From positions 2,566,501-2,630,500 of the forward strand of contig NZ_CP023548.1 of assembly GCF_002407205.1 (NCBI RefSeq): a DNA stretch of 64,000 nt, read 5' to 3'. Below the pieces are notes generated by a model that searched no databases, was not told where the DNA came from, and was given only the letters and a program-made list of their open reading frames with translations. The first letter of the stretch is position 1; each line of letters starts with the position of its first letter. The position numbers and the translations under genes were made by a program. Origin of the DNA: Rhodobacter sp. CZR27 (lineage in GTDB: Bacteria > Pseudomonadota > Alphaproteobacteria > Rhodobacterales > Rhodobacteraceae). This document shows, in pieces, positions 48,016 through 49,139 of the stretch.

Positions 48016-48182
48016 CGACTTCTCCTTCGGCCTGCGACGGCCTTACCTTGCGGGACTTGCTCGAAAGGGCAAGACCGTGTTTTCATGATGCTCAATGCGC
48101 GGGCGAAGCGCCTGCGAAACCGTAACAAATGCCCCAGTGGAGCCATGCAGATGCCGCATGGCAGCATTGAGCATGCGGTGCA

Positions 48183-48210
48183 TTGTGCAGATGCAGCAAA
48201 TGGCCCATGT
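48183..48210 (+). promoter_or_regulatory. Possible heat-shock-type promoter of ccaF1-ccsR
   Basis: CCCATGT (48204-48210) matches the -10 of sigma-32-type promoters, with TTGTGC (48183-48188) 15 bases upstream as a weak -35. In R. sphaeroides this locus is reported to depend on RpoHI/RpoHII. The match is partial. Confidence 0.35.
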
Positions 48211-48285: not shown

Positions 48286-48501
48286 ATGGCTTACGCAAAC
48301 ACCACCCGCATTGCGCACAACGGTCTGGGCGACCGTATGGCCGCGCTCGTGGCTTCGGTGAAGCAGTCGCTGGCCCAGCGTCGGGTCTACCGCCAGACGG
48401 TGCGGGAACTGAACTCGCTGACGACGCGCGAACTGTCCGACCTTGGCATCCATCGCTCGATGATCACCCGCGTCGCGATGGAAGCGGCTTACGGCAACTG
48501 A
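48286..48501 (+). CDS. ccaF1: DUF1127 RNA-binding protein CcaF1
   Basis: A 71-residue protein ending in a DUF1127 domain (about 25-65: VYRQTVRELNSLTTRELSDLGIHRSMI). In R. sphaeroides the homologue CcaF1 is an RNA-binding protein that promotes maturation of the co-transcribed CcsR RNAs and affects RNA turnover. The same arrangement is found here: the first CCUCCUCCC hairpin begins 11 bases after the stop. GAGG at 48274-48277 precedes the ATG. Identification as CcaF1 is from domain, size and context. Confidence 0.88.
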   Translation: MAYANTTRIAHNGLGDRMAALVASVKQSLAQRRVYRQTVRELNSLTTRELSDLGIHRSMITRVAMEAAYGN

Positions 48502-48511
48502 ATTCTTGCGA

Positions 48512-48587
48512 GGCTCCACCTCCTCCCGGGGCCTTTAGCAACAGCGGCGGCACTCCTCCTCCTCCCTGGTGCCGCCGCCTTTTCTTC
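48512..48587 (+). ncRNA. ccsR: CcsR-type sRNA unit 1
   Basis: Two hairpins. A is GGCTCC/GGGGCC (48512-48533) with loop ACCTCCTCCC. B is a 10-bp stem GCGGCGGCAC/GTGCCGCCGC (48544-48578) with a loop containing CCTCCTCCC, then CTTTTCTT, a terminator-like tail. This is the two-hairpin plan of CcsR/cuckoo RNAs. Confidence 0.85.
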
Positions 48588-48628
48588 GGAAGCGCAAGCT
48601 TCCATCAAGATCCGAAGCGCATGCTTCG
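48588..48628 (+). other. Two small hairpins between units 1 and 2
   Basis: GGAAGC-GCAA-GCTTCC (48588-48603) and CGAAGC-GCAT-GCTTCG (48613-48628) are perfect 6-bp stems with 4-base loops. They differ from all other spacers of the array and lack the CCTCCTCCC motif. Confidence 0.7.
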
Positions 48629-48642
48629 CATGACGTTCGAAA

Positions 48643-48708
48643 GGCCCCTCCTCCTCCCTGGGCCGATCGGAACCGCAGCGGCCCCCTCCTCCTCCCTGGG
48701 GTCGCTGC
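48643..48708 (+). ncRNA. ccsR: CcsR-type sRNA unit 2
   Basis: Hairpin A is GGCCC/GGGCC (48643-48664), and B is an 11-bp stem GCAGCGGCCCC/GGGGTCGCTGC (48675-48708); both loops hold CTCCTCCTCCC. No T-tract follows. Confidence 0.85.
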
Positions 48709-48755
48709 ACCAGTTCCCGGCATCGGGCCCTCGCGCCCCCTGCCACACGGGCTTC

Positions 48756-48824
48756 GGCACTGCACCTCCTCCCGCGGTGCCGATGACCAGAGCGGCGGCC
48801 CCCTCCTCCTCCCTGGGTCGCCGC
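48756..48824 (+). ncRNA. ccsR: CcsR-type sRNA unit 3
   Basis: Hairpin A has an 8-bp stem GGCACTGC/GCGGTGCC (48756-48781) with loop ACCTCCTCCC. Hairpin B is GCGGCGGCCC/GGGTCGCCGC (48792-48824) with loop CTCCTCCTCCC. It begins the run of 117-bp repeats. Confidence 0.87.
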
Positions 48825-48872
48825 ACCAGTTAACCGGCATCGGGCCCTCGCGCCCCCTGCCACACGGCCTTC

Positions 48873-48942
48873 GGCACTGCACCTCCTCCCGCGGTGCCGA
48901 TGACCAGAGCGGCGGCCCCCTCCTCCTCCCTGGGGTCGCCGC
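48873..48942 (+). ncRNA. ccsR: CcsR-type sRNA unit 4
   Basis: Nearly identical to unit 3 and exactly 117 bases downstream. Hairpin A is at 48873-48898 and B at 48909-48942 with an 11-bp stem. Confidence 0.87.
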
Positions 48943-48989
48943 ACCAGTTACCGGCATCGGGCCCTCGCGCCCCCTGCCACACGGGCTTC

Positions 48990-49068
48990 GGCGCTGCACC
49001 TCCTCCCCGCGGTGTCGATGACCAGAGCGGCGGCCCCCTCCTCCTCCCTGGGGTCGCCGCATTTTTTT
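48990..49068 (+). ncRNA. ccsR: CcsR-type sRNA unit 5 with terminator
   Basis: 117 bases after unit 4. Hairpin A is GGCGCTGC/GCGGTGTC (48990-49016), with more G-U pairs and an 11-base loop. B is the 11-bp stem at 49027-49060, followed by A and seven Ts, a strong intrinsic terminator that ends the array. Confidence 0.88.
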
Positions 49069-49101
49069 GGGCCGGACGCTCCCTCGCCGGTCGTTTGCAG
49101 A

Positions 49102-49139
49102 ACGGCGGCGCCCCTCTCCCGGGCGTCGCCGTTTTGCTT
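49102..49139 (+). terminator. Second terminator, resembling a decayed sRNA hairpin
   Basis: A 12-bp stem (ACGGCGGCGCCC/GGGCGTCGCCGT, one G-U) with loop CTCTCCC is followed by TTTTGCTT. Stem and loop resemble hairpin B of the CcsR units, with CCCCTCTCCC instead of CCTCCTCCC. It also lies at the end of the convergent pcrA gene. Confidence 0.75.

Follow-up and report, generated by a model that had tools for sequence, protein, structure and literature searches.

The window analysed here, a stretch of 64,000 nucleotides from Rhodobacter sp. CZR27, carries a ccaF1-CcsR (cuckoo RNA) locus, a family already known. What is new is one more species in this family of stress RNAs, and the separation of a fixed part of the array (units 1 and 2) from a variable part (the type-3 units). 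We consider it very likely that the locus as a whole is an operon of this kind: five two-hairpin units under an RpoH-type promoter, cleavage by RNase E and CcaF1, pairing with ribosome-binding sites, and a division into fixed and expandable parts. Its features, in window coordinates, are the following.

48142..48162, no strand: inverted repeat GCCATGC-N7-GCATGGC, a possible regulator site upstream of the promoter motif
48183..48210, + strand: putative RpoH-like promoter motif TTGTGC-N15-CCCATGT, a conserved upstream motif
48286..48501, + strand: ccaF1 homologue of 71 aa, DUF1127 (Pfam PF06568, 52.1 bits, cut-off 23.3)
48506..48578, + strand: CcsR unit 1, hairpins 48506-48541 and 48544-48578 (RF02791 89.9 bits, cut-off 65.3; covariation)
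48584..48635, + strand: spacer 1-2, two small stem-loops, GGAAGC-GCAA-GCUUCC and CGAAGC-GCAU-GCUUCG
48636..48708, + strand: CcsR unit 2, hairpins 48636-48671 and 48675-48708 (RF02791 47.1 bits, below cut-off; fold)
48662..49012, + strand: three tandem 117-bp repeats starting at 48662, 48779 and 48896, with a partial fourth copy from 49013
48754..48824, + strand: CcsR unit 3, type 3, hairpins 48754-48783 and 48792-48824 (RF02791 39.4 bits, below cut-off; fold)
48871..48942, + strand: CcsR unit 4, type 3, hairpins 48871-48900 and 48909-48942 (RF02791 45.2 bits, below cut-off; fold)
48988..49068, + strand: CcsR unit 5, type 3, hairpins 48988-49018 and 49027-49060, then seven T at 49062-49068 (RF02791 46.4 bits, below cut-off)
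49098..49136, + strand: terminator-like hairpin closing the array, with the loop CUCUCCC, a degraded CcsR motif (z -6.1, 0 of 200 shuffles)

The + strand contains ten exact copies of CCTCCTCCC, at 48519, 48558, 48650, 48688, 48765, 48805, 48882, 48922, 48999 and 49040, the first of which begins 17 bases past the stop codon of the DUF1127 gene. This density is unmatched anywhere else on either strand of the genome (4 contigs, 4.44 Mb, completeness 100), which holds 58 copies in total, 48 of them outside the array; the same pattern read backwards, used as a control, occurs 77 times. Excised and folded singly, each of the five units forms a pair of hairpins whose loops display the motif (z -2.9 to -4.7), and for each unit none of 200 shuffles was as stable as the native sequence. 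Both stem-loops of every unit present CCUCCUCCC in the loop. The initial annotation of this DNA had described ten motif hairpins in five pairs behind a DUF1127 gene, which these copies and folds confirm, and the 117-bp periodicity that it assigned to units 3-5, spacer included, is correct. It had placed the array at 48512-49068; the five pairs of hairpins actually span 48506-49060, the seven T come at 49062-49068, and the further hairpin at 49098-49136 had been omitted.

Folding of the whole 639-nt strand recovers eight of the ten hairpins in the minimum-energy structure, and hairpins 1A and 2A pair elsewhere. According to this model, the two may be held in a competing pairing until the transcript is cleaved. 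The spacers were folded as well. Spacer 1-2 reaches a z-score of -2.2, with 5 of 200 shuffles equally stable, and look-alikes of its stem-loops with GCAA and GCAU loops are found in several relatives. As a structured element, spacer 2-3 is no better than shuffled sequence (z -0.6; 51 of 200 shuffles equally stable).

The identification as CcsR/cuckoo RNA, also put forward at the outset, is borne out by the Rfam model RF02791 (CcsR1) on unit 1, by the four sub-threshold neighbours, by the DUF1127 gene and by covarying stems. The covariance-model search that had been suggested as a check places unit 1 above the gathering cut-off, but finds units 2-5 only below it (39.4-47.1 bits). Across the whole genome this search recovered the four other units sub-threshold and nothing else of comparable score. 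A second array in the genome was considered and rejected on score: the four other RF02791 places have E-values of 0.1-0.9 and 15-19 bits, all below the scores of the array. In the five genus genomes the cut-off is likewise passed by first units only.

Evidence for selection on structure comes from the alignments. Among the unit-1 sequences (12 of 14 rows, representing 12 genomes and 10 distinct rows, excluding G006 and the duplicate G002 contig), 97.4% of the cells are paired and 12 of 23 pairs have changed on both sides. Neither value is reached by any of 500 shuffles, and slid controls give at most 2 pairs. The type-3 units (15 of 18, the three omitted copies being identical to kept ones) are 98.2% paired, with 6 of 21 pairs changed on both sides (3 of 500 shuffles); one of five measures, that of further pair types, was matched by 217 of 500 shuffles and is no better than shuffles. 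Judged by these alignments, the array is an RNA under selection for structure, in which the loop is constant and the stems covary between genera.

The gene directly before the array had been called DUF1127, and its Pfam score (52.1 bits vs 23.3) bears this out; a comparison of the protein with NCBIfam gave no match. The product is likely an RNA-binding protein. Seven DUF1127 genes are present in the genome, and only the array-adjacent one lies near the array. No arrays were found beside the other six, as all CCTCCTCCC positions are far from those loci.

The putative promoter motif lies 76 bases ahead of the ccaF1 start codon. In an alignment that took in 9 of 14 upstream regions, TTGTGC is present in all nine and CCCATGT in seven. 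The pattern matches once in the window vs 0.07 expected, a post hoc comparison, as the pattern was derived from that same site; with 8 matches in the CZR27 genome it is not specific alone, and ahead of G001 ccaF1 it has no match. The motif resembles the sigma-32 consensus. We predict an RpoH-type promoter from this conservation, consistent with the RpoHI/RpoHII promoter reported in R. sphaeroides 2.4.1. A promoter scan upstream of ccaF1 found no sigma-70-type promoter. The inverted repeat is present in eight of the nine aligned upstream regions and at this locus in all five genus genomes; in the CZR27 genome it occurs at three places.

The transcript would end at one of two places, the T run behind unit 5 and the conserved hairpin at 49098-49136. 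A terminator scan reported nothing in or after the array, neither the T run nor this hairpin. Counterparts of the closing hairpin follow the array in all four genus relatives (G001, G002, G003 and G004), none of which has a T run as long as 49062-49068 after its last unit. In G125 (L159), the hairpin at the same place carries the whole of CCTCCTCCC, and because the complete motif stands in this closing hairpin, the terminator and the CcsR units may share an origin.

We then asked how the array is composed. Five genus genomes were compared, that of CZR27 included, and the unit tree and identity comparison covered six genomes, one of them an outgroup. By motif count the arrays contain four units in G001, G002 and G003, five in CZR27 and seven in G004, with 2, 2, 2, 3 and 5 type-3 copies, respectively. 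In G002, ccaF1 and the array are present on two contigs, C155 and C247, with a differing spacer, and its four-unit count is uncertain. In the tree of 30 units, the first units group together with support of 86/84, the second units with 99/97 and all later units with 93/87. Because each type forms one group across six genomes, the array is, on the evidence of this tree, built of three old unit types of which only type 3 multiplies. Types 1 and 2, whose order is kept through the genus, appear as the fixed part, and type 3, with 2 to 5 copies, as the expandable part. Units 1 and 2 had been described as diverged from the repeat. They are indeed distinct from type 3, but they are not worn copies of it; they are separate types, each grouping across the six genomes.

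Within the CZR27 array, units 3 and 4 are 97% identical and paired in the tree (support 89/84). Unit 5 is 90-91% identical to units 3 and 4, and 92% identical to unit 3 of G003. The units are spaced by 131, 115, 117 and 117 bases, and those of G004 by 104, 113, 114, 115, 114 and 114. From unit 2 to unit 5, the three intervening spacers have their last 33 bases in common and are 85-98% alike mutually, vs at most 83% to any spacer of other genus members; G003 spacers are 90% alike within the array vs 51% to others. In G001, G002 and G004, spacer 2-3 resembles its counterpart in another species more closely than it does the adjacent spacer of its own array, so homogenising does not reach this spacer there. 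From these comparisons, a single recent duplication of the 117-bp repeat probably gave rise to units 3 and 4, and the spacers were probably homogenised through unequal exchange or gene conversion. The history of the array, as read from these identities, is one of local homogenising and duplication that differs by lineage. The proposal that it grew by recent unequal recombination is thus partly upheld: the spacers and the pairing of units 3 and 4 speak for it, but unit 5 is about as near to the G003 unit as to its neighbours, and this split is not clearly recent.

Five units had been set against the four described for the known locus, but among the relatives five is not exceptional. The other genus members have four, four, four and seven. 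At 53 loci beside ccaF1 relatives (54 of 80 loci, L017-L070, minus the truncated L026), the largest motif-hairpin cluster per locus contains 0-16 hairpins with a median of 9, and ten is the commonest count (15 of 53). Variation of hairpin number in the cuckoo/CIN1 family was stated in 2011 (PMC3927594, section 2.7). Since ten hairpins are the commonest count and such variation is known for the family, the five-unit copy number is ordinary. Twelve of the remaining 26 loci (L071-L096, Rhizobiales by label where named) are without a motif hairpin, and the others have 2-6. In a sample of 296 genomes of the family, the CcsR1 model matches 255 at E 0.01 and exceeds the cut-off in 11, with up to 11 matches per genome, scattered places counted in. 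Thirteen of 57 arrays contain internal repeats that are 80 nt or longer and 90% or more identical. Judged by spacing, the hairpins of other genera are not strictly paired.

These numbers bear on what copy number means. We see an even chance that it is neutral, such that repeats slip both ways, any number over a small minimum suffices and no dose information is carried. The spread of counts over the 53 loci, the range of four to seven units within one genus and the internal repeats in 13 of 57 arrays all favor this explanation. On the other hand, the loop is exact in all ten hairpins and the order of units 1 and 2 is kept, so that each copy looks retained; this argues that the units are used, but not that their number matters.

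A second explanation draws on G004, which contains seven CcsR units (C4:691706-692456, L153). This genome has seven replicons of 3188524, 943018, 114179, 114045, 105284, 100827 and 37100 bases, which agree with the replicon sizes of R. sphaeroides 2.4.1. Three 2-kb stretches were taken from three of these replicons: the first was 99.8% and the second 100% identical to plasmids of C. sphaeroides 2.4.1, and the third had no match. A study of 2.4.1 maps reads to seven accessions, the same number as the replicons of G004 (PMC10253847, available sections). Four CcsR RNAs are given for R. sphaeroides in the accessible text of PMC10253847 and PMC8307010, and the designation CcsR1-4 is used in the portions seen of PMC7866481, PMC8625941, PMC11354728 and PMC5036791. 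A literature search, with the founding papers outside its reach, found no report of five or seven CcsR units. Strain drift, an assembly change or counting practice may explain why four are described and seven counted. Across the 84 bases compared, units 4, 5 and 6 of G004 do not differ, so that neither probes nor mapped reads can distinguish between these three. If the seven units of G004 hold, published work on CcsR1-4 may cover more copies than it names, and the confirmed count would make copy number a testable variable. The array might act as a two-part dial, an idea that we regard as rather unlikely: units 1 and 2 would be fixed, and a contingency-like third cassette of 113-117 bp would change in number rapidly enough to differ between strains, perhaps even within 2.4.1 (four described, seven in G004), and so set the dose of anti-Shine-Dalgarno RNA and the depth of the stress response.

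How the operon may work can be outlined by analogy. In 2.4.1, four CcsRs are co-transcribed with ccaF1 from an RpoHI/RpoHII promoter, and their transcript is processed by RNase E and has a 3' terminator (PMC10253847, in the sections available), and flhR as a target and Hfq binding are described for R. sphaeroides CcsR in the accessible part of PMC8307010. By this precedent, ccaF1 and the five units, with their ten CCUCCUCCC, would be co-transcribed from the RpoH-type promoter, and the transcript would be cleaved by RNase E, aided by CcaF1. Stress induction, Hfq dependence and the flhR target would carry over from the R. sphaeroides papers. The CcsR loops would likely pair with ribosome-binding sites of target messages and shut them off; under stress, the units are predicted to block the start sites of other mRNAs. 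Since the loop is the same in all units, the simplest effect of additional copies would be a larger yield of one and the same sRNA from each transcript.

An improbable alternative is that the array remains uncut and serves as a long sponge for GGAGG sites of the ribosome or another partner, so that the string of loops matters and not separate sRNAs. Ten equal loops on one transcript would suit such a function, as would the not strictly paired hairpins of other genera, but mature CcsR1 and RNase E processing have been reported in 2.4.1 (available parts of PMC7866481 and PMC10253847).

We looked for complementary sites before start codons. GGGAGGAGG occurs 3-9 bases ahead of an ATG at 34 places in the five genus genomes, vs 6 for the backwards pattern. 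Because the motif itself is a strong ribosome site, this excess is no proof of targeting. Five of these places are in the CZR27 genome, four before open reading frames matching acyl-CoA synthetase, formate dehydrogenase gamma, a CBS protein and PCMT, and the fifth inside a long open frame. The ribosome site of the acyl-CoA synthetase gene (G000:C1:1002927, L184) shows full complementarity to the CcsR loop and recurs in all five genus genomes (N-termini compared by eye). That of fdsG, encoding formate dehydrogenase gamma (G000:C1:2924958, L192), is also fully complementary, the exact site being listed for the CZR27 genome only; three relatives examined upstream of fdsG have other purine-rich sites instead. 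Both sites agree with the reported C1 role and can serve as leads, but they do not demonstrate targeting.

There is only a slim chance that the repeat number is wrong owing to an assembly artefact. Repeats of 117 bp are beyond short-read certainty, and the G002 array does lie on two contigs, between which a spacer differs. However, units 3, 4 and 5 are mutually distinct (97, 90 and 91% identity), the genome is in 4 contigs with completeness 100, and other genera have similar counts. That the repeat encodes a repetitive peptide, a thought raised by the divisibility of 117 by three and by a 150-codon open reading frame running through the repeats (48569-49021, + strand), can be rejected with near certainty, as the unit spacings of both CZR27 and G004 keep no frame and the stems covary.

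The closest known system is the CcsR1-4 locus of Rhodobacter sphaeroides 2.4.1 (RF02791; ccaF1 = RSP_6037). Both loci share the gene order with a DUF1127 gene immediately upstream, two hairpins per unit, CCUCCUCCC loops, unit types 1, 2 and 3 and a similar upstream motif. In contrast to the four units described for 2.4.1 in the available text of PMC10253847, the present array has five, and seven T follow its last unit. More distantly, the array resembles the cuckoo RNA family or CIN1 locus of Rhizobiales (SmelA075, SmelA099) in its anti-Shine-Dalgarno CCUCCUCCC loops, variable hairpin number and the small DUF1127 genes that are often adjacent (PMC10253847, parts available; PMC3927594, section 2.7). 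Three and four hairpins have been described for these Rhizobiales RNAs, whereas the present array has ten. It joins this family as a further set of CCUCCUCCC hairpins, variable in number, near a small DUF1127 gene.
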